Below the pieces are notes generated by a model. It was not told where the DNA came from and did no database searches. It was given only the letters and a program-made list of their open reading frames with translations. A program made the translations under genes and the position numbers. A DNA stretch of 64,000 nt from Acidobacteriota bacterium (GTDB lineage Bacteria; Acidobacteriota; Thermoanaerobaculia; Gp7-AA8), in contig QHVT01000016.1 of assembly GCA_003223645.1 (NCBI GenBank), positions 1 through 64,000 on the forward strand, given 5' to 3'. Positions 5,970 through 38,212 of this stretch are shown here, piece after piece. How positions within the stretch are numbered: position 1 is the stretch's first letter; each line of letters starts with the position of its first letter.

Positions 5970-5983
5970 GGCGCGGTGGAGCT

Positions 5984-10778: not shown

Positions 10779-10791
10779 CAAGGAGATTTCA

Positions 10792-11859: not shown

Positions 11860-11872
11860 ACGCACGGGAAAC

Positions 11873-12448: not shown

Positions 12449-12466
12449 TCAAAAGGGGGAGTTGTT

Positions 12467-12898: not shown

Positions 12899-12908
12899 AG
12901 CGGCCGTC

Positions 12909-13313: not shown

Positions 13314-13381
13314 TCGAAAGTGTCGCGGCGATTCTCGAAGTCAGGCTTTATAAGATTCGCAGTGATGCTCGGTCGGAATAG

Positions 13382-14677: not shown

Positions 14678-14843
14678 GCTACCTCCCACAAGCCGATTGC
14701 CGCCCGCCGCAACCGGAGGTCGGCGCGCTATTGAATAGATAGACACGCATTCGTGCAGTTTGTCGGCGCTACGCATCCCTCCATGCGGCCTGGCATCGTA
14801 GCCTTGCCCCCACCCGTTCGCTGCGATTCGTGTCCATGCAGAC

Positions 14844-17063: not shown

Positions 17064-17166
17064 CGATGCGCAGGGTTGCGATCAGAGCGACGAGACCGAG
17101 ATGGACCATGTCGCCGGTGCGAGATTGTCGATCTTCGGCAGCTGGCAATGCAGTGAGGCGACCGCC

Positions 17167-17616
17167 TCACCGCACGCGATACACCCTCACCGGGCTGCTC
17201 GCTTCGCACGTTGCAGGAACGCGGAGGACGATCTTCCGGCCGTCGAACGGATTGTCGGTCTTGCAGGCGAGCAGGTAGATCCTGAAGAATTCGCCCACGC
17301 CGTCCACCTCGTTGCCGAGGTAGATCGACCCGTTGACGGAGCCGTCGTCTCCGATGCTGTGAATGCGCGGCTGAATGTGCAGCCGCGGCGCCCACAGTTC
17401 CGGCTCCACGGCGAAGAACGCATGCGTTCCTTTCGGGACCCGTCCTTCCGCCTCAATACGAAAACATGCCCGCTCGGACTTCGGGCAGCCGGTGTCGCCG
17501 TCGGCGCCGACTTTCTGTCCCGCCGCCGGCCGTGTAACGACGGGACGATCGGCTGCCTGAGCCAGGCAACATGGAATCAGCAGCGAAACCGCGATGAACG
17601 ATCCAAAGGCTCTCAT
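17167..17616 (-). CDS. Small secreted beta-rich protein in caspase cluster
   Basis: ATG 17616 overlaps stop of upstream caspase (ATGA); signal peptide MRAFGSFIAVSLLIPCCLAQA; GRVPKGTHAFFAVEPELWAPRLHIQPRIHSIGDDGSVNG. Confidence 0.65.
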   Translation of the reverse strand: MRAFGSFIAVSLLIPCCLAQAADRPVVTRPAAGQKVGADGDTGCPKSERACFRIEAEGRVPKGTHAFFAVEPELWAPRLHIQPRIHSIGDDGSVNGSIYLGNEVDGVGEFFRIYLLACKTDNPFDGRKIVLRVPATCEASSPVRVYRVR

Positions 17617-20672: not shown

Positions 20673-20709
20673 CGGCAGTGTCTTTTTCGTCATTGACGAG
20701 CGATACGCC

Positions 20710-22353
20710 GTGAGACAGATCGGGCCTTACCAGATTGAAGGAGTGATCGGCGCAGGAGGGATGGGCGTCGTCTACAAAGGCCGTCACGTCACCCTCGGCC
20801 GCCTCGCGGCCATCAAGACGCTCCTTCCGGATAAAGCGGGCGACGCCGCGCTCCGTGCGCGGTTCATCGCCGAAGGGAAGGCGCAGGCGCTCCTCGAGCA
20901 CGACGGCATCGTCAAGGTCTATGACGCCTTCACCGACGGCGGCGAGCTGTTCATCGCCATGGAGTATGTCGAGGGCGAGACGCTCGCGAAGACGCTGGAG
21001 AAACTCCCTCACCACCGGATGCCGCTCGAGGAAGTGCTGGAGATCTCCACGCAATTCCTCACCGCACTCCACTACGTCCACGGCCAGAAAATCATCCACC
21101 GCGACATCAAGCCGTTGAACGTGATGCTCTGTCACGGGCGCGTGAAGCTGATGGACTGGGGCCTGGCCATCGTCGACGGCGCTCCGCGTTTCACGGTCAC
21201 GAATCGCGTTCCCGGCACGCTGCCCTACATGTCCCCGGAGCAGATCGAAGGCAAGCCGCTCGATGCACGCACCGACATTTACAGCTGGGGCGTCGTGCTG
21301 CATCAGATGCTGGCGGGTGCGCTTCCTTTCGCAGAACAGGGCATTTACGCGCGATGGCTCGGCCCGCCCGAGCTGCGCGAATTCGTCCCCGATTTGCCGG
21401 CCGGCGTGAGCGACGCCGTGAAAATGGCGTTGCAGGCGGATCCCGCGAAGCGATTCGCGTCCGCCGTCGAGCTCCGCGATGCGTTGCGTGAAGGAGCGCT
21501 GGGATTTCTCGATGTTCTGCCGCACGATTCCGACGCAACGGTGCCGTACACCGTGCCGGATGCGATCGTCGAGACGCAGCCACCGGTTTCGCAGGATCCA
21601 TCGATCTCGCGGCGCTGGGTTTGGATCGCGATCGCAGCGTGTCTCGTGGCGATGGTCTACGTGACGGTGAGTCTCTGGAACCGTCAACCCGCATTCGATT
21701 TCAGGCCGCCGCAACAACGAGGTTCATCGTCGAACGGAACGGATCGCATCGTCATCGATTTCGCGGCTCCGCTCCCTGCTGTTCTGAAAAGCCGGAAACA
21801 ACCACAGGAGGCGCCGAAGCAGCAGCCGCCGGTCGTCGACGACAGAGCCGCGACGCAACGCGCCGCGGATGATGCGACGCGGATCGAGATCGAGCAGCTG
21901 CGCGCAAGAATCGCGCTCGCCCTCAAACGCGCGGACGCGGACGTACGGAACAACAGCTTTGCGTCCGCGCGCGAACAGGTCGCGCAAGCCGAGCGGTGGG
22001 AGCAACAGTCCGCCGGCCTTTGGCAGGAGCGCGACGCGATCGAGCGAATGCGCGGCCGCATCAATGAGGCCGAGGAACTGGAGCGCGTCCACCGGCAGCA
22101 GGAAGCGATGTGGAGCTCGCGGATCGCGGATGTCGAGAGCGACCTGCGCAAAGAGCGCTGGCCGGAAGCGGAGCGGTTCGCAAAAAACATCATCGACAGC
22201 GCCGACGCGCCCGAGCCGGTGCGTGCCCGTGCCTCCGAGCTGCTGCAGCAGGCGAAGGACGGCCGCGCCGCGATCTTCAAAGAAACAGAGGTCGGGAACA
22301 CTCAAAACACGATCGTCCGGAAACCCCCGTCACCGCCGAGGAAAAACCGTTGA
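20710..22353 (+). CDS. Hanks-type Ser/Thr protein kinase with TM and C-terminal coiled coil
   Basis: IGPYQIEGVIGAGGMGVVYKG, AAIKTLL, IIHRDIKPLNVML, LMDWGLAI, YMSPEQ; TM VWIAIAACLVAMVYVTVSLW. Confidence 0.95.
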   Translation: MRQIGPYQIEGVIGAGGMGVVYKGRHVTLGRLAAIKTLLPDKAGDAALRARFIAEGKAQALLEHDGIVKVYDAFTDGGELFIAMEYVEGETLAKTLEKLPHHRMPLEEVLEISTQFLTALHYVHGQKIIHRDIKPLNVMLCHGRVKLMDWGLAIVDGAPRFTVTNRVPGTLPYMSPEQIEGKPLDARTDIYSWGVVLHQMLAGALPFAEQGIYARWLGPPELREFVPDLPAGVSDAVKMALQADPAKRFASAVELRDALREGALGFLDVLPHDSDATVPYTVPDAIVETQPPVSQDPSISRRWVWIAIAACLVAMVYVTVSLWNRQPAFDFRPPQQRGSSSNGTDRIVIDFAAPLPAVLKSRKQPQEAPKQQPPVVDDRAATQRAADDATRIEIEQLRARIALALKRADADVRNNSFASAREQVAQAERWEQQSAGLWQERDAIERMRGRINEAEELERVHRQQEAMWSSRIADVESDLRKERWPEAERFAKNIIDSADAPEPVRARASELLQQAKDGRAAIFKETEVGNTQNTIVRKPPSPPRKNR

Positions 22354-22363: not shown

Positions 22364-23092
22364 ATGAAACGCATCACCGTCATTTTTCTGATCGCCACGA
22401 TGCTGCTGTCTGCCTGTGTCACGACCGCACCGTCGTCAAAAGCGAATACGCCTCCCAGACCGAACAACATCAAGGAGTGGATGGCGCTCCAGAGCCGGGC
22501 GAAAAAGAAGGCACTCATCGGGGCGCTGATCGGAGCGGTCGCCGGCGGCTTGAGTGCCGGCATTGCAGGCGGCAACACCGACGACATCCTCAAGAACGCG
22601 CTCGCGGGCGCGGTGGTCGGCGCGATCGCCGGGTTCGCGATCGGCAAACGGGAGGATACGATCTTCGCCGGCCGCGATCTCGCAATCCGGCAGGCGGGCT
22701 ACGACCGCTCGCAGGGCTACATCGCGCGCGTCGAAGCGGTGACGTTCGATCCGCCGCAACCGAAGCCCGGCGAGACGGCGACGCTCTACGTCCGCTATCT
22801 CGTGCTCGGTCCCGATCCGAACGAGACGATCAAAGTGAAGATGTTCCGGGGCCTGAAATACGGCGACGACTATGTCTTCGGCGCCGGTCCGAATGAGTTC
22901 AAAGTGCCACAGGGCGGGGGTGTGGTGGAGTCGAAGCTCGATCTGGTGCTGCCGAAGAAAGCTCCGGAGGGCACGTATGCCGCCGAAGCGCTGCTCGAAG
23001 ACTCGCAGGGACGATTCCCGCAGACCCTCGGCAAGGGTGTGCTCTACATCCTCGCGCGCGCCGGAAGCCGCGGAGTGAAAACGGCGGCGTGA
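22364..23092 (+). CDS. Lipoprotein with glycine-zipper segment
   Basis: Lipobox MLLSACV; GALIGAVAGGLSAGIAGGNTDDILKNALAGAVVGAIAGFAIG. Confidence 0.8.
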   Translation: MKRITVIFLIATMLLSACVTTAPSSKANTPPRPNNIKEWMALQSRAKKKALIGALIGAVAGGLSAGIAGGNTDDILKNALAGAVVGAIAGFAIGKREDTIFAGRDLAIRQAGYDRSQGYIARVEAVTFDPPQPKPGETATLYVRYLVLGPDPNETIKVKMFRGLKYGDDYVFGAGPNEFKVPQGGGVVESKLDLVLPKKAPEGTYAAEALLEDSQGRFPQTLGKGVLYILARAGSRGVKTAA

Positions 23093-24252
23093 TGAGTCTG
23101 TCCCGCGACTCGATCCTCGCTCTGCAGCGTCATTTTCTCGGCGCGCTCAGCGAGCCTGCGCGCACGTGGCTCGAGCCCATGGCCGCCGCCCGCGTGGCGT
23201 TTGCCGGCGATGCCATTCGCATCGACGGCGAAGGATGTCTGGTCGACTTCGGCACCGTCGAATCGCCCGGTGAGGACCACCGGCTGCTGCGGGTCTCCGA
23301 GCGAGGCGCGCGCATCAGCGAACAACCGCCGTGGCTCACGGTGCGCTGGATCGATGACTCGACGCTCGCGCTCATTGCGATTCACGACACCGAGCGAGAC
23401 TTCTGCGATCCGCTTCGCTTGTCCTTCAGCGATGGCCGCAGCCAGGCGCTCCGCGTGCGCATGAGCGCCCGGCGCACGCATCCGATCGCGGAGCTCAATT
23501 TCAACGGCTGGCCGGCGCCGCATCCATTCGACTTCGGCGCGAACGAGCATCCATACGTTCTTTCGGTCGGCAATCGCAGCGGCGTCCCGCTCGTCGTCAG
23601 CTTTGCCGATCTTCCGGAATGGCTGCGGTTCGAGATCGACGACCGCTGGCGCGACGGACCGCTGCCGGGCCGGTTCTTCCGGCGCAGTGCGCCGTTCAGC
23701 GTACGCATCCGTCCGCGTCCGCGCTTCTTCGGGCGGCGAAACGGCTCGATCCATCTCCAGACGAACGATCCGAGGGCGGACATGCAATCGATCGAGCTCG
23801 CGTTCGCCGCGTGCGTCGAGCCCGCGAAGCCGTGTGTCATCTCATTTGCGCCGCAGGCAAATCGCCTGCGCGCGGATCAGAGCATGACCGTGTCGGCGCG
23901 TCTCGAAAACTGGAGTCGCTCGCCGGCTCGCGTCCACGCGCACGTCGTGCCGGCCGCCCTTCGCGTGCTGGAGTGGCCGGTCGTTCCGGCGGCGCGCGAC
24001 GGACAGCCCGGCGCGGCGATGTTGCCGATCCGCATCCTGCCGGCGCAGCTCGCGCCGGGCGCGCACGCGCTGTCAGTCTCCATCCGCGTTCTCGACGGCG
24101 AGCCCGCGGTGGTCGACGTGCCGATGCGCGTCGAAGTGACGCCCGCGCTGCCGCGTCGGACGGGCGTCAGCCGTTCCGAAATGGTCGCCGCGCTCCTCAC
24201 GCTGCTGCTCTTCGCGCTCCTCTTCGCCGTCGTCGTGCGAGGTCTCTCATGA
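23092..24252 (+). CDS. Hypothetical beta-rich protein with C-terminal TM anchor
   Basis: ATGA overlaps with both neighbours; two Ig-like segments; terminal VAALLTLLLFALLFAVVVRGLS. Confidence 0.75.
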   Translation: MSLSRDSILALQRHFLGALSEPARTWLEPMAAARVAFAGDAIRIDGEGCLVDFGTVESPGEDHRLLRVSERGARISEQPPWLTVRWIDDSTLALIAIHDTERDFCDPLRLSFSDGRSQALRVRMSARRTHPIAELNFNGWPAPHPFDFGANEHPYVLSVGNRSGVPLVVSFADLPEWLRFEIDDRWRDGPLPGRFFRRSAPFSVRIRPRPRFFGRRNGSIHLQTNDPRADMQSIELAFAACVEPAKPCVISFAPQANRLRADQSMTVSARLENWSRSPARVHAHVVPAALRVLEWPVVPAARDGQPGAAMLPIRILPAQLAPGAHALSVSIRVLDGEPAVVDVPMRVEVTPALPRRTGVSRSEMVAALLTLLLFALLFAVVVRGLS

Positions 24253-27119
24253 ATCGAGCCGCCGCGCTCGCGGAGTGCCGTTTCTGCCGTCAGTGGGAAG
24301 TTGCTTCGGACGACCTCTACTGCAGCTTCTGCGGATCGCTGTTGCTGCCGCTCGAGATTCTGTTCGAAGCGAAACCGCTGATCACGACGATCTCTCCCAC
24401 GCGCGAAATTACTTTGCGCAATGACAGCTCGCGGCCGATGCAGCTCTCCCTTCGCGCGCGCAGCGGCGGCGCGCTCGCCGCCGGCGTGACGTTCGATCCC
24501 GGAACGGATCTGGAGGTCGCGGCGAAGAGCGAAGTGCTCGTCCACGCGACCGCGGACGCGGCGAAATTGCCGCCGGGGGTTGACGGACTCGTCGAGTACG
24601 TCTGCGTCGTCGACCGCGACGAGCGCAAGCAGCGAACGTTCACGCTCGAAGTGCGCTCCGGACCGTCGCCGAAACTGCTCACGCCTCGCCTCGACTTCGA
24701 CGAGGTCGCGGAAGGGACGGCCGTTGAGCGGCTGCTCCGGCTCACGAACGCCGGCAACGTGCCGTTGGGGATCAAGAGCGTACGCGCGGAAGGATCGCCG
24801 CATCTGCGCGTCGAAGGCGATCACGCGAATCGCGCGATCAGAAAAGGCGAGACGCTGTCGATTCCCGTCATCTGGCAGAGCTCGTCCGAGACGCCCATGA
24901 CTCCCGCGGGCGAGCAGCCGGCCGGTGTTCGCATCACCTTTACGACGAACCGGCTCGACGAGTTGTTCGTGGCCGCGAGCGCGCGGATGTTCCGCTACCG
25001 GCTCGATGTCAAGCCGTCGTCGGTCCGCTTTACTCAGGCTCTGGCGAAGCACGAGTACGTCTCGCCCATCAAGTTCGAAAACAGCGGCACGGTCGATGTC
25101 GAGATCACATCGATCGAGCCCGATCAGCCATGGATTCACGTCATTGCGCGCGCGACGCGATTCACGCTGCTGTGCGCCGACTCCGTCGCTCGGCAGAAAG
25201 TGCTCTCGCCGACGACGCTTCGCGCGTTCGACTTCAAGATTGTCTGCCGTCCCGCCGACCTGACGCCCGGCAGGCATCGGGGCAACGTCACCATCCGTGC
25301 GCACCAACAGGAGCCGCTCGTGCTGCCGGTGGAGATCACCATCGTCAAGCCAAAGGAGTATCCCGACTACATCGGCATCGACTTCGGCACGACGAACTCC
25401 GTCGTCGCGGTGCTGAGCCAGAAGGACAAGAGCGGACTGGAGCTGGTGCAGGACGAGTCGTCGGGCAAAGATCTCATCCCCAGCGTGCTGGTCTTCGATG
25501 ATCCGGAGACGTACAAGATCGGCGCGGCGGCGCTGCACGAGGCCGACGCCGCGCCCGACCGGACGGTTCGCTCGATCAAGCGTGTGATGGGCTACGAGCG
25601 CGATCGCAATTTTTTCGACCGCCCGTATTCCGCCGCGCAACTGGCGTCGTTGATCATCCGGAAGCTCGTCCTGCTCGCGGAGCGAAAGCTGCAGGCCGAA
25701 TCGACGAACGGCACGCACTTCACCGTGCGCAAGGCCATCATCACCGTTCCCGCGAATTTTCACGACCTGCAAATCCGCGACGTGCTCGAGGCCTGCGACG
25801 CTGCCGGTCTGGACACTGAAGAAGAGCGCGCGCAGAAGGTCGCGGAGCGGCAGGGCGCGCAGATCGGTGAGGCCGTGAACGCCGGGATCATCCTCGACGA
25901 GCCCTCGGCCGCGGTCCTCTATTACATCGATCAGCTGCGGCACTCGCGCGGCGCCACGGAGATGGCCAAGGCCATTGGGCGCGAACAGGGGCTGAAGCTC
26001 CTCGTCTTCGATTATGGCGGCGGCACGCTCGACGTGGCCGTGGCCGGCGTGACGCAGGTGAACGGTGGCGGCACCGGCCTGCGAATCCTCGCCAACATGG
26101 GCGACAACGCGATCGGCGGCGATCAGATCGACGTGCTCGTGATGAGCGAGCTATTGCGCCGCTGCAAGCACGAGCTGCGGGACTTCGAGTTCGACACCTC
26201 GCTGATCACCGGCACGTTCCGCGACTTCCAGCGCCGCAGCGAGGCCGAAGGCTGGAACGGCCACGTCTGGCGGGAACTGATGGGCGTTCGCGCGCAGTGG
26301 AAGGATCTGGCCGAGAAAGCGAAGATTCAGATCAGCGGAAAATCCCAGCCGGCGATCGACGTGCGTCCCGATTTGATCGTGCGCCTCGCCGGCGGAGCGA
26401 TCGAGCGCGCCCCCCGGGGCGCCAGGATTCCGCCGCTCGCGTCGGAGCTGGTGAGCGAGCTGCTGCAGCCGGTGCTCGCGCGCAGCGAAGAGTTGATCAA
26501 ACAGGCGCTCGCGCTCGCGGAAGTCGGCGCGAACGACATCGACTACATCCTCCACACCGGCCGGCAGAGCCTTCTGCCGCACGTTCGCCAGCGCGTGCGC
26601 GCGCTCTTCCCGAATCTCGACGACAAACACGATCTTCTCGAGGAGCAACATCTGAAGATCTGCGTTGCCAAAGGGGCGGCGCTCTATGGCTCGATGCGCG
26701 ACCGGCTCGTCGCGCCCGAAGCGCGGATCGTCCTCCTCAGCGAAGGGCGGCGCCTGCCGCACAGCTACGGCGTCGAGAAATTCACCAACATGGTCGAGCC
26801 GGAGTTCGACGAAGTCATCGAGCGCGGCGCGAAGTATCCGGTCGAGCGGACGAAGCTCTATCCGGCGGACATGATTCCGGTGAGCGGCTATCTCAATCTC
26901 AACTTCTACCAGAACACCGGTGTCAGCAAGACCATCGTCGGCAACCGGCAGGTGAGCCGGATCGGCCAGATCTCGATCGACACCGCGCACGACGGCAACT
27001 CGGGCTGCCAGGTCACGTTCGCCGTCGGACCGAACCGCACGTTGCATGTTTCCGCGAACGGCAATCCCGTGACCATCGAGCCCGCGCGCCTGCACGAAGA
27101 AGAGAGCTGGATGGGATGA
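24249..27119 (+). CDS. Zinc-ribbon + Ig-like repeats + Hsp70 (DnaK-like) fusion lacking the C-terminal lid
   Basis: CRFCRQWEVASDDLYCSFCG; repeated beta modules; YIGIDFGTTNSVVAVL, AIITVPANFHDLQ, GIILDEPSAAVLYY, LLVFDYGGGTLDVAV, IDYILHTGRQSLLPHV; ends just after SBD-beta-like strands. Confidence 0.93.
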   Translation: MNRAAALAECRFCRQWEVASDDLYCSFCGSLLLPLEILFEAKPLITTISPTREITLRNDSSRPMQLSLRARSGGALAAGVTFDPGTDLEVAAKSEVLVHATADAAKLPPGVDGLVEYVCVVDRDERKQRTFTLEVRSGPSPKLLTPRLDFDEVAEGTAVERLLRLTNAGNVPLGIKSVRAEGSPHLRVEGDHANRAIRKGETLSIPVIWQSSSETPMTPAGEQPAGVRITFTTNRLDELFVAASARMFRYRLDVKPSSVRFTQALAKHEYVSPIKFENSGTVDVEITSIEPDQPWIHVIARATRFTLLCADSVARQKVLSPTTLRAFDFKIVCRPADLTPGRHRGNVTIRAHQQEPLVLPVEITIVKPKEYPDYIGIDFGTTNSVVAVLSQKDKSGLELVQDESSGKDLIPSVLVFDDPETYKIGAAALHEADAAPDRTVRSIKRVMGYERDRNFFDRPYSAAQLASLIIRKLVLLAERKLQAESTNGTHFTVRKAIITVPANFHDLQIRDVLEACDAAGLDTEEERAQKVAERQGAQIGEAVNAGIILDEPSAAVLYYIDQLRHSRGATEMAKAIGREQGLKLLVFDYGGGTLDVAVAGVTQVNGGGTGLRILANMGDNAIGGDQIDVLVMSELLRRCKHELRDFEFDTSLITGTFRDFQRRSEAEGWNGHVWRELMGVRAQWKDLAEKAKIQISGKSQPAIDVRPDLIVRLAGGAIERAPRGARIPPLASELVSELLQPVLARSEELIKQALALAEVGANDIDYILHTGRQSLLPHVRQRVRALFPNLDDKHDLLEEQHLKICVAKGAALYGSMRDRLVAPEARIVLLSEGRRLPHSYGVEKFTNMVEPEFDEVIERGAKYPVERTKLYPADMIPVSGYLNLNFYQNTGVSKTIVGNRQVSRIGQISIDTAHDGNSGCQVTFAVGPNRTLHVSANGNPVTIEPARLHEEESWMG

Positions 27120-28567
27120 GAGCGCAGCTGATCCTCGATTGCGGAGGCCGCGTGCTGTCAGCGCTGCTTGTGACGGCAGATGGACAACAAGTGCCGTGCA
27201 GCCAGGACATCCGATTCGTCGCGGCGCGCTATGTCTCTGCGGATCTGCTCTACGAGCCGCGTGTTGCCGAGGCCGAGGACTTCATCTGGGAAGACGCGCT
27301 CGAGACGGTAGCAAAGGCGACTGCGCGCGATTTCTTTCAGCGGGCGCGCCGCATCGGCCTCCGGCGGCCATGGGACGCGCAGGCTTCCGAGCGGGCCTTG
27401 CTGCTGGCGTCGCCGCTGGCGGTGCTCTCGTCCGCCGTTGCGTTGACCGACCGCGCCGCGCGCGCATCGCTGCCGCGCGTGGCCATGGCGCTCCTCGACG
27501 CCATGCTCGATCCGGCGTTTTCGTTTCTCGCCGAGCGGCAGATCGCGTTCGCCGAGATCGATCCGATCGTCATTCTCCCGGCGCAGGTGGGGCGGCACGC
27601 GCGGCTGGTGCTGCAGAAGCTCTTTCGCCGCCGTGGCTTTCGTCCTCCCGCAATCGTGAGCCGGGATCTCGCGGCCGCGGTGGCGCGGATCGATGAGCCG
27701 CCAGGCGAATGCCTCGTCCTCGATGCATCGGATGAGCATCTGCATCTCCATCGCGTGTCGATCGAGGGCGGCGAGAACGAGCGGCGGTTCCGCACGCTTG
27801 CTTCCACGACGTGGCCGGCGCTCGGCTGGAATCATTGGAGCGCGCGCATCGCCGAGGCACTGCACGTCACCGCCACGGCGGCCTTCGATCGCGCGTTGAT
27901 CTCGCTGCTCACCGGCTCGCCCGATTCGCTCAAGCCGAGACTGACCCATGGAGCGTTGCAAAGCGCGCTCGATGATGCGTGGGTCGCGGCGCAGCGGAAC
28001 GAGATCGCTGGCCGGTTGCGGGAAATCGATGTGAGCGGACTGCGCGTGCTTTTTGCCGGCGAGCTCTTCGCGCTCGACGCCGTCCGCGCGGTCTTCGGAG
28101 GAAACGGGGTGACCGGCACACCCGTTCTCGATCAAGCCGCCGGCGGCATTGCGGGGGCGTTGCGCTGGCTTCGCGCCGCGGAGGAGCGGCAGCTCGTCCT
28201 CGTGCCCGGCGGAGGGCTGCGCGTCAACAACTTCCATGGCGAAGCGATCGAGCTCGTCTCACCGGAACAGCTCCCCGCCGCCGGCGAAGCGTGTTTCGTC
28301 GAAACCGACTTGCGATTTGCCGGCGAGGCCGCGAAGTCGTTCGTGATGCATTTGCAGTGGGGCGCGGACCAGACGCCGGAAGGAAACGCGACGCTCTGCG
28401 CGATGCCGCTCGAGCTGCGCCGCGACTCGAATGATCTTCGGCTGAGCGTGCATCTTCGCCGCAGCCGGAGCGGCCGCCGGTTGCACGGAACCGTCGAAGC
28501 GCGCATGGCGCGCGGCGTCGTCGCGGCGCAGGCGCAGTTCGCCGAAGAGCTGGAGGTGAGGAGATGA
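27116..28567 (+). CDS. Degenerate Hsp70/actin-fold ATPase-like protein
   Basis: ATGA overlap; LILDCGGRVLSALLVT, CLVLDASDEHLHLHRVSI and LRVLFAGELFALDAVRAVFG at positions expected for phosphate/adenosine motifs of Hsp70, with key residues altered. Confidence 0.6.
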   Translation: MRAQLILDCGGRVLSALLVTADGQQVPCSQDIRFVAARYVSADLLYEPRVAEAEDFIWEDALETVAKATARDFFQRARRIGLRRPWDAQASERALLLASPLAVLSSAVALTDRAARASLPRVAMALLDAMLDPAFSFLAERQIAFAEIDPIVILPAQVGRHARLVLQKLFRRRGFRPPAIVSRDLAAAVARIDEPPGECLVLDASDEHLHLHRVSIEGGENERRFRTLASTTWPALGWNHWSARIAEALHVTATAAFDRALISLLTGSPDSLKPRLTHGALQSALDDAWVAAQRNEIAGRLREIDVSGLRVLFAGELFALDAVRAVFGGNGVTGTPVLDQAAGGIAGALRWLRAAEERQLVLVPGGGLRVNNFHGEAIELVSPEQLPAAGEACFVETDLRFAGEAAKSFVMHLQWGADQTPEGNATLCAMPLELRRDSNDLRLSVHLRRSRSGRRLHGTVEARMARGVVAAQAQFAEELEVRR

Positions 28568-29973
28568 TGAATCGATCCTTGATGGTCGGGCTGTTGCTGA
28601 TTTCGCTGGTGGTGTTCGCCGCGGTGGGGGAGGTGTCGAAGGAAGGCAACCCTGCCACACCAACACCGGACAGTTCCAACACGACCACGGCGTCCGATGC
28701 CACAAACACGTCCGCCACGACCACGACGCCTCCGCCGGGCAATCCTGCGCCGCATGTCACCACGACCGTCCGTCAAACAAGACCGGTAACGCAAACGGCC
28801 CATCCGGTTGCTGCCACAGAAACCACGCCGACCACCACCGCCGCTGCCGCGCCGGTGATCACGACGACCACCGCTGCGCCGCCGGCTGCCCCGGTCCCTG
28901 CGAAACCCGTCGTCCATCCGATCCCTCCGACTCGGCCGCAATCACTGCCGTGGTGGCTGCTCACACTCCTCATCCTGAACACGCTCCTCGCGCTGACGGC
29001 CGTCGCGTTGCTCGCGCTCCCGCTCTTCAAACCGAAACCGCAACCGAACTTCGACGATACGGAGCTCGGAAGACGGCTGGCCCGGCTCACCGAGAGAATC
29101 GGAGACGTCCAGGCATTTCTCAGCGACAAGATCCAGAAGCGCGGCGACGAGTTGCACGAAACCATCGCGAAGCACGTCACACGCGAGCAACTCGATGCCG
29201 AGCTGCAGCCGGTGCTCGCCCACGTCGCCTCGCTCGATCACACCATCGAGGAAATCGCGACCGCGCCGCCGACGACGTCGTCCTCTCCCGTCGACCCGAC
29301 TGCCATCGAGCATCAGGTTCTCGGCGAGTGCTGGAAACAGTTCCGCGACCACAAGGAGCTCAGCGCCGCGTTCGACGCCGCGCTCCACGACAGCTCATGG
29401 GACGGATTGCTCACCGATCTGGGGAAGCTCGTTCCCGACGATCTGAGGCCGTCATTCGACAATGTCGTCGCCCCCTGCCGCGAGTACCGCACGCTCGTCC
29501 GAAAAGTCAGCCTGATTCCGCAAATCGTCAGCGGAGAGTTGAAGCGGCTCGGTAGCGACGCCGAGGAAGTACGCAGGACGCGCGAGTACGCGAGCCTCCT
29601 CGCGTCGATGCAGAGCGGCGACAACGGCAATCGTCTGAATTTCCGATTCAAGAGCTGGATCACGGACAGCTTCCTTCCGTTCGCCGATCTCTATCTGCAG
29701 CGCTATCAGCAGGCCCAGCTCGAAAGCCGCCATCGCGAGATGCAGCGGGGCGTGCAGCTCGTCCGCCAGTTGCTGCACTTCGCCGCCGTCGAGCCGATCG
29801 AGGTGACCCTCGGTGAGACGGCCTTCGACAGCGCGCTGCACATCGGCCGCTCCACTACGAACGACCCTCGCTTCTCGGATGGTGTCATTACCGGTGTGGT
29901 GAGGAATGGGTTTGTCGAAGGAGGGCAGCAGGTGATTCGGCACCCCGAGGTAATCGTCAACCGGATGCGGTGA
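28564..29973 (+). CDS. Membrane-anchored protein with Thr/Pro-rich ectodomain, coiled coil and GrpE-like C-terminus
   Basis: Signal/TM; T/P-rich 60-120; TM WWLLTLLILNTLLALTAVALLALPLF; coiled coil; C-term LRQLLHFAAVEPIEVTLGETAFDSALHIG...VVRNGFVEGGQQVIRHPEVIVNR resembling the GrpE beta-wing. Confidence 0.65.
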   Translation: MMNRSLMVGLLLISLVVFAAVGEVSKEGNPATPTPDSSNTTTASDATNTSATTTTPPPGNPAPHVTTTVRQTRPVTQTAHPVAATETTPTTTAAAAPVITTTTAAPPAAPVPAKPVVHPIPPTRPQSLPWWLLTLLILNTLLALTAVALLALPLFKPKPQPNFDDTELGRRLARLTERIGDVQAFLSDKIQKRGDELHETIAKHVTREQLDAELQPVLAHVASLDHTIEEIATAPPTTSSSPVDPTAIEHQVLGECWKQFRDHKELSAAFDAALHDSSWDGLLTDLGKLVPDDLRPSFDNVVAPCREYRTLVRKVSLIPQIVSGELKRLGSDAEEVRRTREYASLLASMQSGDNGNRLNFRFKSWITDSFLPFADLYLQRYQQAQLESRHREMQRGVQLVRQLLHFAAVEPIEVTLGETAFDSALHIGRSTTNDPRFSDGVITGVVRNGFVEGGQQVIRHPEVIVNRMR

Positions 29974-29985
29974 CGGGAGAACAAC

Positions 29986-31260
29986 GTGACCTGTGCCTAT
30001 TCGGTTCCGAATTGCACATCGGATGTCGCGGCAGACGCGCAGCGATGCCGCTGCGGCGGCTTCCTGAAGCGCTGCCCGCGCTGCGATACGCGCAACCGCG
30101 GGTTTGCGAACTTCTGCCGCGCCTGCGGATCGGTGTTGCCGCCGTCGGCGCAGAACTGGACGGCCTACAAAGGGAGCGCACGCCGTCTCGGCGTCAGCGG
30201 GTCCGCAAGGGGTCCGGCGAGCCTCGCCGAGAACGTCACGCTTCGGCTGCGCCTTGGCGACGAATGCCGCAGCCTTCTCGCCTGCGACGGCGTGCTGGTG
30301 GCGATCTCACTCGCCGGCGTCGTGGAGATCGCCGATCCGCGGCGTGCGGCGAGTCTCTGCCGCTTCCAGGTGCAGGGACCGATCACCGCCGAGCCTTGCA
30401 TCCGCAACGGGATGCTCTATCTCGGGACGCGCGGACAGCTGACCGCTTATGCGCTCGCTCCCATGACCGCGACGACGCCGCGCGTGCAGCCGGTGTGGCA
30501 AATGCCGATCGTCGGCACTCCCATTCACGCGCTCACCGCGGCCGGCAATCGCCTGTTCGTCACCGTCGCTTCGTCGGGCTGGCGCGACATCCAGGTGATC
30601 GATTCGATTCACCGCCCGCAGCCGGCACCGGCGCGCACGCTGTTCGGTGCCGCGAATGCGGGTTGGCTCGCCGCCGATGCCGCGGGAAGGGCGGTTTTCT
30701 TCTCCGAGGATGTGCAGGGCGTGCAGTTGCACGTCTTTGACCGCGAACTGACGACGCATCCCGTCTCGCTGCGGTCGCTCGTGGAGCAGCCGATCGCGCT
30801 CCTGGGCGACACGATCTTCGGCATCTTCGGCGAGGAGCATCGTCTCTATCGCATCGATGCGGCGACGGGCAGCATCGCCGAGCCGCTCGATGCCGACACG
30901 CAGCTCTTCGCGCTCACCCACGCCGGCGAGGACGAATGGGATCGCGACGGCGCGCGCATCGACACCCGCGGGATCTCCTTCCTTCGCTCCGGAATTCATG
31001 ACGGCTTCGGACCGCACGAGTGGGCCACCCGCGGCTCACCGCTGATCGTGCAGGGTTGCGCAGTCGTCATCGGCATGGATGACGGGCGCGTGCGCGTCTA
31101 CGACCTCGCACACCTCCCGCGTCACGAGGCGTGGCTCGTCGGCGGCAACGGCGGCGTCGCGATCACCGCGCTCGCTTCATTCGAGACCTTTCTCGCGGCC
31201 GGCAACAAAGAGGGAATCGTCGAAGTGCGCGAGCTGCGGACGCCAGGAGCGAAACAATGA
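29986..31260 (+). CDS. Zinc-ribbon + PQQ/WD-like beta-propeller protein
   Basis: GTG start; CRCGGFLKRCPRCDTRNRGFANFCRACG; repeated propeller-like blades (LLACDGVLVAISLAGVVEIADPRR, GMLYLGTRGQLTAYAL). Confidence 0.75.
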   Translation: MTCAYSVPNCTSDVAADAQRCRCGGFLKRCPRCDTRNRGFANFCRACGSVLPPSAQNWTAYKGSARRLGVSGSARGPASLAENVTLRLRLGDECRSLLACDGVLVAISLAGVVEIADPRRAASLCRFQVQGPITAEPCIRNGMLYLGTRGQLTAYALAPMTATTPRVQPVWQMPIVGTPIHALTAAGNRLFVTVASSGWRDIQVIDSIHRPQPAPARTLFGAANAGWLAADAAGRAVFFSEDVQGVQLHVFDRELTTHPVSLRSLVEQPIALLGDTIFGIFGEEHRLYRIDAATGSIAEPLDADTQLFALTHAGEDEWDRDGARIDTRGISFLRSGIHDGFGPHEWATRGSPLIVQGCAVVIGMDDGRVRVYDLAHLPRHEAWLVGGNGGVAITALASFETFLAAGNKEGIVEVRELRTPGAKQ

Positions 31261-33029
31261 CCCGACGTATCGCGATTGCGATTTCGCTCGTTTTGCTTGC
31301 GGCCGCCGCGCACGCGGCCCCGGCCCTCAGGCCGGGCGATCCGGTGGCCGTGCGCATTCTGTACGACAACTCCGGCAGCATGTATCCCGGCTATCGTCCG
31401 CCGGGCGATCCGGCTCGTCGCAGCAGGGCCGACCTCGGCTCGCGCTACGTTCATCAGTCGCCGGCGTTCGTCGAGTGGCTGGGCGATTTCGTTCAGCGGC
31501 AGACGCTCCTCGACGGCGCGACCGCAGGGATGTGGACCTTCACGTCCACCGGAGCCTTCACGCCGAATGACATTCAACAGGTGCATCCGGTGGTGCCCCT
31601 CCGCGAGTTCGACGCCGCCGCGGCAATCGGCCGTTTTCCCAATCACACCGGCGACAACACGTATCTCACCGAAACGCTCACCACCTTCACGCGCGATTTC
31701 ACCGGTTTGATCTGGCTGATCACCGACAACATCGTCGAGACGGATGCCGGACAACCGGACGAAGGCGTACGGCGGTTTTTCGACACGCTCGCGCGGCAGA
31801 ATGAGTTCCGTTCCGTTCATCTCTTCAAGTACACCGTCGAAGAAGGCGGACACACCGCCGCGCTCGCGGTGTACGGCATCCTCGTCTCGGCATCGGATGT
31901 TTCTCCTGAAACGCTCGGGTACTACGACGCCAGGTTCCTGACACTGCTCGAGGCCCGCCGGGGCGCGCGGGGCGGCGAGCTCTTTCCGGGCCGCGAATAT
32001 CTCAAGCTGAAGAACCTGGCCATCGATCCGTTGGTACTGAGTGCCGACCTGCAGCTCGTCCTCTCCGACCAGGACAAAGGGATGTTCAAGGAAGGGCAGA
32101 GCGTCCAGCTGGATCTGGAGGGCGAGATTCGCAGCCGTCTGACGCAGCACTCCGTCACGGCCGGCCGCTACGAGCTCGCGGTGGCGACGACGTTTCAGCC
32201 GGAGATGTGGGCTCAGCGCGACCTCGGTGCGCAATCGCTCGCGCCACAGGTGTTCGATGCCGCGAGCGGAGAGATCCAGGAAGAGATTCCGCCGAAGGGC
32301 TCGCGCCGCGTGCACGTGCGGCTCAGCTCCACGCAGCCGGTGTCCTTCACGCCGAGCGGCCTAGGTGAATGGCTGCGCCTCGCGTGGAATGGCGCGGCAG
32401 TCCGTTACACGGGCTCGGTGCGCATGTCGTTCACCGACGTGAGCGTCCGCCTCGAGCGGCAGCAGATGGCCGGCATCTTCGGCATCGATCAGGCGTCGAC
32501 AATCTTCGATTTCCAGGACGTGCGGACGCTGCAGCAAGTGCGTCCGAGCGTCGTACCGGTGAGCTTCTCACTGCGGACGGGCTCGAGCCGCACCGCGATT
32601 CTGCTGGTGGCGCTCGCGCTCCTCGCGGCGATCGGGGTGCTGCTCGCGATCCTGCTGGCGCGCAAGCAATCGTTCGACATCACCATCACGCGCGGGCCGA
32701 CGGCCACGATCGAACTGCGCCGCCTCGGCACGCATCGCGTGATCTTCGATCAAAAGGTCCTCGGCCGCTTGTCCCGCGGTCTCGTGAACGGCTACGCCTT
32801 CGATCCGGTCGCCGGCGATCGCAGCGTCATGGTCATTCCGTCCTCGATGCCCGGCACATGGGACGTGAAGTTCACCGGCGGCAACAATCATCAACTCTCC
32901 ATCAAATCGAAAAGCGGCACGTTGAATCAGGCGGACGAGCCGAAAAAGAAGCCCGGAACGCCGCCGCCGCCCCCGCCGCCACCGAAAAGCAGCCTGCCTC
33001 CGCGCACACCCAAGATCGGCAACCGTTGA
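31257..33029 (+). CDS. VWA-like membrane protein with cytoplasmic FHA-less beta tail and Pro-rich C-terminus
   Basis: Signal peptide; VRILYDNSGSMYPGY; TM TAILLVALALLAAIGVLLAILLA; GTPPPPPPPPKSSLPPRTPK. Confidence 0.8.
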   Translation: MTRRIAIAISLVLLAAAAHAAPALRPGDPVAVRILYDNSGSMYPGYRPPGDPARRSRADLGSRYVHQSPAFVEWLGDFVQRQTLLDGATAGMWTFTSTGAFTPNDIQQVHPVVPLREFDAAAAIGRFPNHTGDNTYLTETLTTFTRDFTGLIWLITDNIVETDAGQPDEGVRRFFDTLARQNEFRSVHLFKYTVEEGGHTAALAVYGILVSASDVSPETLGYYDARFLTLLEARRGARGGELFPGREYLKLKNLAIDPLVLSADLQLVLSDQDKGMFKEGQSVQLDLEGEIRSRLTQHSVTAGRYELAVATTFQPEMWAQRDLGAQSLAPQVFDAASGEIQEEIPPKGSRRVHVRLSSTQPVSFTPSGLGEWLRLAWNGAAVRYTGSVRMSFTDVSVRLERQQMAGIFGIDQASTIFDFQDVRTLQQVRPSVVPVSFSLRTGSSRTAILLVALALLAAIGVLLAILLARKQSFDITITRGPTATIELRRLGTHRVIFDQKVLGRLSRGLVNGYAFDPVAGDRSVMVIPSSMPGTWDVKFTGGNNHQLSIKSKSGTLNQADEPKKKPGTPPPPPPPPKSSLPPRTPKIGNR

Positions 33030-33043
33030 AAGGAATCGTGTCC

Positions 33044-33424
33044 ATGAACTATCGAAATACTCTCGCTGCCCTGTCCGCTCTCCTCGCATTCCCACTCGCC
33101 GCACAGAGTAACGCTCCGCTGCTCGAACAGTCGGACAACGTCCTGCTGCGAGGTGCCGGGATCGCTCTCGCCGTCGTCATGATCTGGTTCGTTCTCTACA
33201 AAGGGGTGTATCCGTTCTTCCTCCGCTACTACCGCGACGAATTCTGCAAAACGATTTTCTGGAATCTCTTTTTTCTTTACACCCTGACCTGGATTCTCGT
33301 GTCCTTTTATGTAGTGCTGGACGTCGGCTTCTACTGGGCGTGGCTGCCGTGGGTAGCGGTATTCCTCGGCGTGTGGTGGCTGATCTCCGGCGCGGTGCTG
33401 TTGCTGAGACGCGTTCCGGCCTAA
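33044..33424 (+). CDS. Small multi-TM membrane protein
   Basis: Hydrophobic: GIALAVVMIWFVLYKGVYPFFLRYY...WNLFFLYTLTWILVSFYVVLDVGFYWAWLPWVAVFLGVWWLISGAVLLL. Confidence 0.8.
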   Translation: MNYRNTLAALSALLAFPLAAQSNAPLLEQSDNVLLRGAGIALAVVMIWFVLYKGVYPFFLRYYRDEFCKTIFWNLFFLYTLTWILVSFYVVLDVGFYWAWLPWVAVFLGVWWLISGAVLLLRRVPA

Positions 33425-33451
33425 CGACGAACTGACCATCAGGGAGAACCG

Positions 33452-36400
33452 ATGAATCTCGACCCCCTCCTGCAAGCAAGCCTTCCCCAAACCCTCGTCA
33501 GCGACAAGCCGGTCGGACCGACGATGATCATCGGCCTGGGCGGCACGGGAAAAGAGGTCCTGCTGCGCCTGCGCCGCAAGATCATCGAGCGTTATGGAGC
33601 GCTTTCCCGGCTGCCGTTCCTGCGCTTCATGCACGTCGATACCGACAAGACGCTGAACGCGACGGAACAATACGACCTCCGCGGCGGCGACGATCCGCTC
33701 ATCCGTGAAATACAGTTCTCCAATGCCGAGCGCGTGGATCTGACGATTACGGGCGGAACCGGCAAGTACGTCGATCATCTCAACAACTACCCCAGCGTCA
33801 AGCGATGGTTTCCGGGCGGCAGCAAGATCGCCCATCTCGGCGATTTGAAGGACGGCGCCGGACAGGTCCGCATCGCCAGCCGCCTCGGTTTCTTCGACGC
33901 CTTCAATCATCAGAAGATCACCGGCCGCCTGGCGCAGTGCCGCAGGGAGCTCAGCGAGACTTCCATCCCCTCGGAATCGAGCGCGCTCGGATTCGACTTC
34001 AACGCCCAAAACTCGAGAGTCGTCATCGTCGCGTCGATCGCAGGCGGTACGGGCAGCGGCACCTTCCTGGACATGGGCTATCTCGTGCGCCGTTATTTCC
34101 CCGAGGCCGAGCGCATCGGGATTCTGCTCCTGCCCGGATTCTTCAGCGGATATCCGGGAGCGGAGCGCGTGCGTGCGAACGGATATGCCGCGCTGATGGA
34201 GCTCAATCACTACACCTTCCGCCATACCTTCATCGCCGACTGGACGGCCACGCAGAGCGAGCGCATGGGACCGCCGCCATTCAGCAGCACGTACCTGATC
34301 GACAACAAGAACGAGGCCGGCCTTGCCATCGGCTCCGGCGGAAAAGATCAGAAAGAGCTCGACGCCTACCGCATGGTGGCGGAGGTGCTGTATCAGGACT
34401 ATTCGGTCGGCGCATTCGCCAGCCACAAGCGCGCCATTCGCGTGAACCTCGAGCAGTTCAACCTCAATGTGTACCGCCACAACTTCCTCAATGAGGCGCT
34501 GCTGCGCAATGACGCGGAAACGCACAAAGGAATCGTCGGCGACGCGTATCCGTGCCGGTTCGGATCGTTCGGCCTGGCGACGATCGCGTTTCCGACGGAG
34601 CGCGTGCAGAGTGCCTGCGCCAGCCGCCTGGCCTCGAAGATTCTCGACTATTGGCAGAAAACCGCCGTCGACGATCCGATCGAATATCTCTTCACGAAGT
34701 TCCTCACGGATCAGCGGGTGCTCTGCGCCCAGGGAACGTACGAGCGGCGCGACGGCGCGGGCGTCGTCGATCAAAACGACATCGAAGACGCGCTGATGGT
34801 CTATGACGCCGGCAGCGGCCGCACATTCAGGGATTTTCTCTGGGAAAAAGCGCAGGCGCTGCGCGTGGAGCTCGAATCGACTCCGAACGGCAAGAAGGCC
34901 GAGCGCCTGCGCGAACGGCGGGCCGAGCTCGATCAGTTCTATACGGCCGAGGACTCGGAATATCCGGATGAATGGGGCGTCGGCATCCGCCATCTCGATC
35001 AGAACATGCGCTCCTATCTCCAGCGGGTGAAGGACGGGATCGAGGCCAAGGCAGGCGAACTGGCCAATCACCCGCAATACGGCGTCAGCTACACGCTCAA
35101 GCTGCTGCAGACGTTCAAGACCCTGCTGCGCAATGAGACGTTCCGCTATATGCAGCATTTCGACGATCAGGTGCCGGTGTGGGTGGAGCGGATGCAGTAC
35201 TACTCGAACGCGCTCGACGAGATGCAGCGCGACGTCGCGCGCCACGAAGAGGAATTCCTGTTCCGCCCCGCCGATCTGAAGCGCGACTACGAAAAACTCG
35301 TCGGCGACGGGAAGGACGACGACGATCGCGGCGCGTTCTTCGATCACTTCTATGCCCGCGCCGGCAAGCAGGTAGCCAAGCGCGGCAAGTGGGTCTGTGA
35401 ACAGCTCGAGGCATTCCTCGGCCCCGATCACGAAGGGGGCGCCGGTCTGCTCGGCCGCTACCACGATCTCGTGGCCGGCTTTGCGCGGCTGAAAGACCAT
35501 CTGCAGAAGAAAGAGGCGTATTACACGAAGCAGGAGGCGTCGGACCTGACGCTGTCGCTCTATCGCGACGGCGACGTCGACGAGTGGTATCGCACGTGGA
35601 TCGGGGAGGGGGCGGCGGAGGTGCAGAACCTCAAGAACATCGGCGGGCAGATGCTTTCCGAGGTGTTCGAAGTCGACGGCGTCAGCGCGGCGCTGGAAAA
35701 AATTCAGCGCACGCCGGTGGAAACGGTGGAGGAGATGATGTTCGCGAAGTGCCGCGCCGTCGTCGTCCACCACAATCGCCAGCCGGACGCGCTGACGATG
35801 CTGTTCGACGCCAACCGGATCGATACCCGCCAGCGCATCGACATGGTCCGCCAAGCCTATCGCCTCGCCAAAGTCTGGGTCGCGCCGAGCGAGCGCGGAT
35901 TGGAGCACACCGGGCTTCCGCCGGTGAGCATCGATCAGCGGCCGGTGCTCATCGGATTCGACGATGCGGCCAATCCGCAGCGCGTTTCCGACTTCGTCAA
36001 ACTCGTCGAGGGCGCGCAAAACACGGGCGACTCACCGTTGACGTTCAAGAACATCGGCCAGCAGCACCGCGGAATGATCGTCTTCTATCATGAGCTCGCG
36101 GGCGTCCCGGCGTTCTATCCGAGCTCCGTCACCGATGCGCACGGTCTGCGGGCCGCCTATAACGCGTTCCCGGAAAAAGAAGAGCTGCACACGGACAAGA
36201 ACCGCTTCCAGTTCGGCGATCTGATTCCGAAGGACGACAATGAGGCGCGCCAGTACACCGATTCCCTGCGCGCTTTCGTCCTCGGGCGCGTGCTCGGCAT
36301 CGTGGAAGCGAATCAATCGCCGAGCGACGGCGACCAGCTCGTCTATCGCTACAGCTACAAGCTGGTCAAGGATCTCGACGTTCAGGAAATCCCTCTCGGC

Positions 36401-37429
36401 GGCGAAGCGCACGCGGTCGATTACCTCTGGCGCGACAAACGCGCCGAACATCTGACGCACCGCCGCTATCTGCTCGAGAAAATCGAGAAGACGATTCAGG
36501 TGCTGCGCGATCAGAAGAAGCTGGCCGTCTACAGGCTGCTTCTCGACTTTTACATGAAGAAGGTCTATCCGCCGGTCGATCGCCTCGAGAGCGGAATTCC
36601 CGATCTGACGATGACCCAGTATTCGCCGGAATATGCGGTACTCGACGGAGCCAAGGACCGGCTCACGCAGATCATCGGCGATCACGAGCAGTTCCAGCAA
36701 CAATTCCGGGGCATCGCCCAGAAGAATCTCGAGGATCCGCTCACGTACGAGGAGTACGCCAAAGCGCTCGAGCCGTACTGTAAGACGGCCGGCAAATATG
36801 CAGATGATCCGGCGCTCGTCGTGGTCCATCGTGGTGTTGAGTGGCGGGATGTCTTCGCGCTCGACATCAACAAGGCCGATAAGAGCGCGGCCAAGGCGAA
36901 GGAACAGATGCCGCCGCCGCGTCCGGCGAGCCCCGCTGTCCCGGCCGACCGGCCGTTCGGCGAGCGCCCGTGCCCGAATTGTGCGAAGCCGATCGATCAG
37001 CGCGCCATCCGTTGTGCGCATTGTCAGAAAACAATTGCCGTCCACGTCGCCTGTCCCCATTGCCAGGAGCCGCGCGTACCGAGCGACCTGGAGCACTGCT
37101 TCAAGTGTGGCCAGCGGATGCGCCAGGACGAGCCGGTCGATTGCCCGCAGTGTTTCAACTTCAGCGGCTACGAGGAGCAGTTTCCGTGTCCTCAGTGCGG
37201 CTACGACCTGAAAACGGGATCGACCGCCCCGCCGTCGATCGGGACTCCGATTCTTAATGTCCGTACAGCGGCGGAGGAGGGCGGCGGCAACGGCAAGGCC
37301 GGGCCGTCCGTCAGCGTCGCCGAGCCGGCGATAGCCACGATCCCGCTCGTACAGTGCACGGTTTGTTATGAAAAAGTCGTCCCCGGTCCGACGTGCTCAG
37401 AGTGTTCCAGTCCCTTGGAGGTGAGGTAA
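33452..37429 (+). CDS. Tubulin/FtsZ-superfamily protein (tubulin-like) with multiple C-terminal zinc ribbons
   Basis: AGGGAG before ATG; MIIGLGGTGKEVLLRLRRKI N-term, VVIVASIAGGTGSGTFLDMGYLVRRYF (GGTGSG tubulin signature); C-term with many CxxC pairs (CPNC, CAHC, CPHC, CFKC, CPQC, CPQC, CTVC, CSEC). Confidence 0.88.
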   Translation: MNLDPLLQASLPQTLVSDKPVGPTMIIGLGGTGKEVLLRLRRKIIERYGALSRLPFLRFMHVDTDKTLNATEQYDLRGGDDPLIREIQFSNAERVDLTITGGTGKYVDHLNNYPSVKRWFPGGSKIAHLGDLKDGAGQVRIASRLGFFDAFNHQKITGRLAQCRRELSETSIPSESSALGFDFNAQNSRVVIVASIAGGTGSGTFLDMGYLVRRYFPEAERIGILLLPGFFSGYPGAERVRANGYAALMELNHYTFRHTFIADWTATQSERMGPPPFSSTYLIDNKNEAGLAIGSGGKDQKELDAYRMVAEVLYQDYSVGAFASHKRAIRVNLEQFNLNVYRHNFLNEALLRNDAETHKGIVGDAYPCRFGSFGLATIAFPTERVQSACASRLASKILDYWQKTAVDDPIEYLFTKFLTDQRVLCAQGTYERRDGAGVVDQNDIEDALMVYDAGSGRTFRDFLWEKAQALRVELESTPNGKKAERLRERRAELDQFYTAEDSEYPDEWGVGIRHLDQNMRSYLQRVKDGIEAKAGELANHPQYGVSYTLKLLQTFKTLLRNETFRYMQHFDDQVPVWVERMQYYSNALDEMQRDVARHEEEFLFRPADLKRDYEKLVGDGKDDDDRGAFFDHFYARAGKQVAKRGKWVCEQLEAFLGPDHEGGAGLLGRYHDLVAGFARLKDHLQKKEAYYTKQEASDLTLSLYRDGDVDEWYRTWIGEGAAEVQNLKNIGGQMLSEVFEVDGVSAALEKIQRTPVETVEEMMFAKCRAVVVHHNRQPDALTMLFDANRIDTRQRIDMVRQAYRLAKVWVAPSERGLEHTGLPPVSIDQRPVLIGFDDAANPQRVSDFVKLVEGAQNTGDSPLTFKNIGQQHRGMIVFYHELAGVPAFYPSSVTDAHGLRAAYNAFPEKEELHTDKNRFQFGDLIPKDDNEARQYTDSLRAFVLGRVLGIVEANQSPSDGDQLVYRYSYKLVKDLDVQEIPLGGEAHAVDYLWRDKRAEHLTHRRYLLEKIEKTIQVLRDQKKLAVYRLLLDFYMKKVYPPVDRLESGIPDLTMTQYSPEYAVLDGAKDRLTQIIGDHEQFQQQFRGIAQKNLEDPLTYEEYAKALEPYCKTAGKYADDPALVVVHRGVEWRDVFALDINKADKSAAKAKEQMPPPRPASPAVPADRPFGERPCPNCAKPIDQRAIRCAHCQKTIAVHVACPHCQEPRVPSDLEHCFKCGQRMRQDEPVDCPQCFNFSGYEEQFPCPQCGYDLKTGSTAPPSIGTPILNVRTAAEEGGGNGKAGPSVSVAEPAIATIPLVQCTVCYEKVVPGPTCSECSSPLEVR

Positions 37430-37432
37430 GCC

Positions 37433-38212
37433 ATGGCTCGCTCATCGCCTGTGCGCGCTCTCACGGTGCTGTTCCTGCTGTTCTTTCTTGGGTTGGCGGT
37501 GACGGTGTTCGCGTTCGTCGACCTGCAATGGACGCATGTCGTCCTGGTCAAGATTCCCGACGCCAAATCGGGCAAGGGGGTGCGGGCGGCGAGCGTCGAC
37601 CCGCAGCAGTTGCAACGCCTGCGGCAGAGCATTCTCAATGTGCGCGTGCAGTGCATCAGCGGCGAGAACACCGGAACCGGCTTCATTGTGAAGCCGGGAT
37701 TCGTCGCCACGGCCGCGCATATTTTCGGCGACCGGCGTCTGTGCAGCGGTCCCATTCGCCTCGTCGACTACAAAGGCCTCGAGCACATCGCCGAGGTGGC
37801 GGGGGTATCGGACGACGACGATCTCGCCGTGCTGAGCATTCCCGACGTCCTGCTCCCGGCACTGGCACTCGCCGATGCGACCCGCTATGAAGCCGCCAAT
37901 GACGTCGTCCGCGTCGTCACGATCGGCTATCCGCTCGAGCAGCAGGGAGCGTCCGCCCGCGACAGCGCGTCGGTGTCGGGAGAGGGCAGCCTTTCCCGCT
38001 TCATCCGCGATCGCAACGTATTCGTCACCTCGGGACTCAATCTGAATCCCGGCAACAGTGGCGGTCCGATTTTCATCCGCGACAACTGGACCGTCCTCGG
38101 CATCGCCCGCGCGAAACTGCCCAACACAGTCGGCGAAGGGATCGGATACGTCGCTTCCGTTCGCGCGTTCGAGAGCTTTTTCCGCGAGAAGACTGGACAG
38201 GAACTGCGATGA
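37433..38212 (+). CDS. Membrane-anchored trypsin-like serine protease
   Basis: N-term TM; GTGFIVKPGFVATAAHIF (His), DDDLAVLSI (Asp), NLNPGNSGGPIF (Ser). Confidence 0.93.
   Translation: MARSSPVRALTVLFLLFFLGLAVTVFAFVDLQWTHVVLVKIPDAKSGKGVRAASVDPQQLQRLRQSILNVRVQCISGENTGTGFIVKPGFVATAAHIFGDRRLCSGPIRLVDYKGLEHIAEVAGVSDDDDLAVLSIPDVLLPALALADATRYEAANDVVRVVTIGYPLEQQGASARDSASVSGEGSLSRFIRDRNVFVTSGLNLNPGNSGGPIFIRDNWTVLGIARAKLPNTVGEGIGYVASVRAFESFFREKTGQELR

Follow-up and report, generated by a model that had tools for sequence, protein, structure and literature searches.

The 64,000-nucleotide stretch analyzed here (the window; positions 1 to 64,000 of contig QHVT01000016.1 of the Acidobacteriota assembly GCA_003223645.1) encodes a member of a new FtsZl1/Tubulin_2 subfamily, in which a very divergent tubulin-like domain is joined to a C-terminal tail of four putative zinc ribbons. 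The gene is a forward-strand open reading frame (ORF) that starts with ATG and codes for 1325 residues (33452-37429), as an earlier note made from the sequence alone had it, and the two motifs quoted there are found at residues 25-43 and 196-216. Pfam family PF13809 (Tubulin_2) spans residues 26-398 (33527-34645) with E = 9.5e-64 and 216.3 bits, for a curated cut-off of 27 bits; this was the hidden Markov model search suggested in the note, and the N-terminal tubulin-like domain it had proposed is also borne out by homolog alignments, orthologs, and two AlphaFold models with their Foldseek matches. In contrast with canonical FtsZ and tubulin, PF00091 stays under its cut-off (14.9 versus 33 bits). 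As described for FtsZl1 (PMC2875224), the protein coexists with a separate canonical FtsZ, which lies elsewhere in the genome (G000:C21:580453, PF00091 E = 4.1e-48). Neither NCBIfam nor the defence-system library has a match for it. A 1030-residue antisense ORF that overlaps the gene (32927-36019) is interpreted as a shadow frame of high-GC DNA. The protein is securely identified as a Tubulin_2/FtsZl1 member whose four-ribbon tail is conserved; judged by sequence, the protein combines a tubulin-fold nucleotide-binding domain with conserved loops, invariant ribbon cysteines, and an operon order that is kept across phyla.

The tail contains exactly eight CxxC pairs, where the earlier note had seen at least eight half-sites, and by their count and alignment these make up four zinc-ribbon units (residues 1174-1318; 36971-37405). 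Three ribbons stand in tandem, with about 10-11 residues between half-sites, and are followed by a Pro/Ser-rich linker of ~50 residues and by the fourth ribbon at the very C-terminal end. The Pfam model DZR passes its cut-off there in two stretches (27.8 versus 27.3 bits), and zinc binding is predicted from the pairing of the CxxC motifs. A PDB sequence search with the tail alone gave no significant match. All of the cysteines (16/16) are invariant between the window protein and three orthologs that align with it over their full length at 42-49% identity. Hence, the cysteines are not there by chance, and the predicted ribbon tail is supported.

A search among class relatives and GTDB representatives identified six further proteins with the same layout. 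They come from a metagenome-assembled genome (MAG) deposited as Deltaproteobacteria (G096, locus L050), from G095 (L041), from Acidobacteria SZUA-115 (G114, L053), from two Candidatus Aminicenantes MAGs (L051 and L054), and from Desulfonema magnum 4be13 (L052). In the scan of genome contigs, a single-protein query gave nothing, and an alignment of four sequences gave matches. In a 45-row tree, which was a quick build with several long branches, the seven ribbon-tailed proteins form one branch (99% in the SH-like approximate likelihood-ratio test). The L054 protein was scored as "other" in this tree because masked bases split its gene; the second part holds 8 CxxC. Nearest to the clade are G061 and a clade of Pseudomonadota and Humidesulfovibrio, and the nearest well-sampled clade is that of the proteobacterial FtsZl1 proteins with a GYF_2 tail. 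Pfam finds GYF_2 in 19/39 aligned homologs, and a profile built from the homolog set picks up AgmX by its GYF domain; the C-terminal module of the family thus appears to have been swapped between GYF_2 and putative zinc ribbons. A mobile-element origin of the gene was considered and rejected, as plasmid and phage matches do not extend beyond the Tubulin_2 part and reach no more than 33% identity.

The predicted fold agrees with the family assignment. The AlphaFold model of residues 1-1160 (mean predicted local distance difference test score 80.2, predicted TM-score 0.71) has only tubulins or tubulin-containing assemblies among the top 50 Foldseek matches listed (E = 5e-5, probability 1.00), with alignments of ~390 columns to targets of ~425 residues and TM-scores to the target of 0.34-0.45. 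For a second model, of residues 1-410, in which residues 319-384 are of low confidence, the matches listed are CetZ, tubulins, TubZ, and FtsZ only (probability 1.00). Makarova and Koonin 2010 were unable to detect the second tubulin subdomain in FtsZl1 (PMC2875224). The lengths of the Foldseek alignments, which are between predicted structures and come with low TM-scores, suggest that this subdomain is present here in some form. Searched against PDB sequences, the homolog profile gave no tubulin match; its only match was AgmX, whose GYF domain is hit by way of the homologs. The long helical middle announced by the earlier note holds for residues ~443-805, but ~830-1105 are mixed alpha/beta in the model.

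Within the Tubulin_2 domain, six stretches are matched to the loops T1 to T6 of FtsZ and tubulin by their order, by secondary structure, and by the loop motifs of FtsZ and tubulin, so that the labels are presumptive. Across the 39 to 60 homologs compared, these residues vary little or not at all: T1 GGTG (G30-G33), D63 and D65 of T2 (DTD, 63-65), T3 GAGQ (G135-Q138), T4 GGTG(S/T)G (G198-G203) together with S195, P228 and R239 of T5 (P...R, 228-239), and N287 of T6, after strand S6. A comparison of FtsZ and FtsZl1 profiles aligned T4 to H6 confidently (E = 0.002), and its confidence is low past H6. Both models place a helix at 301-318, a candidate for H7, before a loop and then another helix, and T7 is therefore most likely at ~316-323. 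The invariant N332 was rejected as the T7 asparagine because it is helical in both models.

In FtsZ, T7 carries GXXNXD, which is important for hydrolysis (PMC8456036). The candidate T7 reads D-F-x-S-x-D-F-A in the homologs, and its second acid, residue 321, is D or E in 55/55 homologs outside the clade. Within the clade, five members have A, S, G, A, and D, the L041 protein has T, and that of L054 has G. The probable T7 acid is thus replaced in 6/7 members, the window protein having Ala at 321, which may be a further difference from canonical FtsZ and tubulin. That the replacements vary suggests relaxed constraint on this position rather than one new function. The clade might still be a fully active, polymerizing FtsZ-like GTPase if D316 or another residue were the hydrolytic acid: D316 is the obvious alternative to residue 321 and is invariant in 60/60 sequences, just before or within the candidate loop. 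Yet it is the acid at 321, the better fit to FtsZ T7 by motif and position, that is lost, and we regard an active GTPase of this kind as improbable. The earlier note spoke of a GTPase, and it named the absence of a tubulin fold, or the loss of nucleotide-contact residues beyond the T4 loop, as what would speak against its view. The predicted fold and loops T1 to T6 are kept, but the acid of the probable hydrolytic loop is lost in the clade. Because of this loss, "GTP-binding" is better supported than "GTPase" as a description of the domain, and reduced GTP hydrolysis by the tubulins of the clade is a hypothesis.

The gene lies in a run of eleven genes on the same strand (22364 to 39279, gaps of -4 to +27 bp), preceded by genes for a vWA protein and a kinase. 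The vWA-domain protein, secreted or with a transmembrane segment (18954-20672, VWA_2 E = 1e-10), may be the first of the cluster, and a homolog of it adjoins a different Tubulin_2 gene of this genus. The Ser/Thr protein kinase has one transmembrane helix and a GAGGMG loop (20689-22353, Pkinase E = 5.8e-43; the start, ~20689, was set by eye). The run opens with a lipoprotein-like glycine-zipper protein (22364-23092, Rick_17kDa_Anti 1.1e-5) and an Ig/ASH-like protein with a C-terminal transmembrane helix (23092-24252), which has no Pfam match; the operons of L054 and D. magnum encode homologs of it. A 956-residue protein follows that joins a zinc ribbon, an ASH/Ig-like part, and Hsp70 (24249-27119, HSP70 E = 1.2e-34); its Hsp70 phosphate motifs are invariant in orthologs. 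The next product (27116-28567) is divergent and has a homolog at the same position in D. magnum; it is possibly Hsp70/actin-like, though a profile match on the phosphate-2 region is not significant (E = 0.23) and was not accepted as identifying it as an Hsp70 homolog. The protein encoded at 28564-29973 has a signal, a Pro/Thr-rich region, a transmembrane segment, and a GrpE-like C-terminus (PF01025 4.7e-5, over the cut-off in two orthologs). An N-terminal double zinc ribbon with a probable beta-propeller (29986-31260) is indicated by DZR (1.6e-4), a weak PQQ_2 match, and orthologs. Directly before the tubulin-like gene are a protein with a signal, a vWA-like domain, and a transmembrane segment (31257-33029), recognized by its DNSGS metal-ion-dependent adhesion site motif and lacking a Pfam match, and a small membrane protein with three transmembrane-like segments (33044-33424). 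After it come a trypsin-like protease with an N-terminal transmembrane segment (37433-38212, Trypsin_2 3.3e-15), in which the His, Asp, and Ser motifs are present and for which the defence-system library gives only generic protease matches, and a protein with an N-terminal transmembrane segment, Fn3/PEGA-like repeats, and a C-terminal domain (38209-39279), with weak Pfam matches and orthologs in the same position.

This arrangement is conserved. L038-L041, L050, and L053 share the gene order from Hsp70 through to trypsin or PEGA, and L054, with masked stretches, does so in part. On the complete D. magnum chromosome the operon set recurs with its order almost unchanged, and the divergent and Ig-transmembrane proteins are part of it; the differences are two GrpE-like genes, an Ig-transmembrane gene moved beside the propeller gene, and two insertions. 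Among proteobacterial FtsZl1 genes with GYF_2, a vWA gene and a small gene also stand directly upstream of Tubulin_2, and vWA homologs do so in many Pseudomonadota loci. In contrast, GYF_2 often replaces the ribbons there, no Hsp70, trypsin, or propeller homologs occur in the flanks searched, and the other operon components were not detected in these loci. The tubulin-like protein and its operon partners probably form one membrane-spanning assembly, and we infer that the conserved operon is best read as encoding a membrane-linked complex with Hsp70. Since the Hsp70 and propeller proteins bear N-terminal ribbons of their own, it is plausible, as the earlier note supposed, that the ribbon tail docks to the operon's other zinc-ribbon proteins.

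We give about an even chance to the view that the protein is a membrane-tethered, nucleotide-binding tubulin scaffold, the cytoplasmic core of an operon-encoded trans-membrane complex, which is remodelled by Hsp70. The tubulin domain would bind GTP and assemble at the inner membrane through the vWA-transmembrane and small transmembrane partners, the tail would recruit the ribbon-bearing Hsp70 and propeller proteins, and Hsp70 with the membrane-anchored GrpE-like protein would remodel the assembly. Because the probable T7 acid is lost, little intrinsic hydrolysis is expected, and the assembly would be a GTP-bound scaffold or switch that is turned over by the chaperone and does not treadmill. 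The periplasmic vWA, trypsin-like, and PEGA-like proteins would sense or cut an envelope signal. The response may be to envelope stress or to invaders, with the caspase, CHAT, or FGS proteins encoded nearby in several genomes as possible outputs; such a stress or conflict role is a hypothesis. Unlikely as a whole is the more specific proposal of a chaperone-controlled tubulin, a GTP-bound and membrane-tethered scaffold that has lost its own hydrolytic acid, relies for its turnover on a dedicated Hsp70/GrpE-like pair recruited by the ribbons, and links envelope signals to cell death or defence.

Makarova and Koonin 2010 described FtsZl1 with vWA, kinase, GTPase, and OmpA partners and proposed a role in membrane remodelling or vesicles (PMC2875224). 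The N-terminal domain, the T4 loop, the long helical middle, and the vWA and transmembrane partners found here are like those of that account. It reports no ribbon tail where it describes FtsZl1, whereas four C-terminal ribbons are predicted here, together with Hsp70, GrpE-like, propeller, and trypsin genes in the operon and the loss of the probable T7 acid. If the tubulin polymer shaped the membrane and the other proteins were structural partners, one could account for the shared family, the vWA partner, the many transmembrane proteins, and the lipoprotein and SPOR/SLT/LysM genes near the operon. However, no membrane-deforming domain was found among these proteins, and the Hsp70, GrpE-like, and protease genes added in this clade suit signalling or the control of assembly better, so that membrane remodelling is rather doubtful as the explanation.

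A second known context is that of the conflict systems of Kaur et al. 2020, which have a core of DO-GTPase and GAP1 and in which tubulin and HSP70 with GrpE are separate themes (PMC7159879). The operon resembles their GAP1-N2 DO-GTPase systems in its tubulin, HSP70, GrpE, possible second HSP70-like protein, and zinc ribbons, and more generally in its vWA and kinase parts and in nearby effector types common to both. It differs in that the tubulin and HSP70 themes, non-overlapping there, are in one operon here. That it is a true system of this kind, with the GTPase genes elsewhere in the genome, is largely refuted. DO-GTPase2 (PF19993) and GAP1-M (PF20014), the only two models used for the test (DO-GTPase1 and GAP1-N were not part of it), have no match in the window genome, G095, G096, G114, or the complete D. 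magnum, with Corynebacterium glutamicum as positive control. The fifth ortholog genome, from Aminicenantes, is the only one to have them; its DO-GTPase2 and GAP1-M matches sit on another contig, that of PF19993 being weak and sub-threshold. This explanation is thus highly improbable, and because the two components are missing, the operon, as its gene content reads, is a variant of the tubulin/Hsp70 conflict systems and not a member.

The surroundings contain further genes that resemble effector types in Kaur et al. (PMC7159879), namely, caspase, CHAT, and FGE-sulfatase genes. Upstream of the operon, the window encodes three caspase-like proteins and two CHAT proteins in a cluster (541-18824) with an extracytoplasmic function (ECF) sigma factor (6778-7392), and homologous clusters adjoin the genus's other Tubulin_2 genes (L013/L014, L015/L016). 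Downstream of the D. magnum operon are a caspase and another vWA protein; L050 has one FGE-sulfatase-TPR protein near the operon, and L051 two FGE-sulfatase proteins and one CHAT/STAND-like protein. Nine caspase matches and eleven CHAT matches were counted in the window genome, some of them within about 20-30 kb of each of its two strong Tubulin_2 loci. This proximity suggests a function but does not prove it. The second strong Tubulin_2 protein (L013:15123-17873, on G000:C21) lacks ribbons and stands beside caspase-like genes, with a third, weak match ~2 kb downstream. A class relative has a second FtsZ-type protein fused behind an N-terminal TIR domain (L150:976-2466, G059:C15; TIR_2 E = 5e-13, Tubulin E = 7e-43, FtsZ_C E = 1e-18), with FtsZ_C and the T7 motif intact. 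Upstream of the D. magnum operon (L138/L139) is a single stretch with at least five near-identical ORFs of ~170-320 residues starting MLRDDTGAIYHVEEQRNLKK. Downstream of the operon in L051 (6999-12348) and L052 (17267-21756), several proteins have a brief N-terminal Cys motif whose last residues are FCP(H/N)(T/S)GK, one of them with FGE-sulfatase and one with a SPOR domain.

Several points count against the Hsp70-remodelled scaffold. The placement of T7 relies on the short motif DFA and on secondary structure predictions, the FtsZ profile being confident for T4-H6 only. The TM-scores of the models are low (0.29-0.46 to target), which indicates a distant fold match. An Hsp70-like nature of the protein at 27116 is unproven, and the nearby effector-type genes vary by genome and belong to types that these lineages commonly carry.

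Tubulin_2 proteins are widespread, and no experimental study of them was found in the literature searched. In the clade described here, about ten conserved genes form a compact set that links the tubulin with membrane proteins and a chaperone machine, and Desulfonema magnum, a cultured bacterium, has this set. Two questions thereby become directly testable: whether a tubulin can work as a scaffold that does not hydrolyse GTP and is controlled by Hsp70, and what purpose FtsZl1 systems serve.

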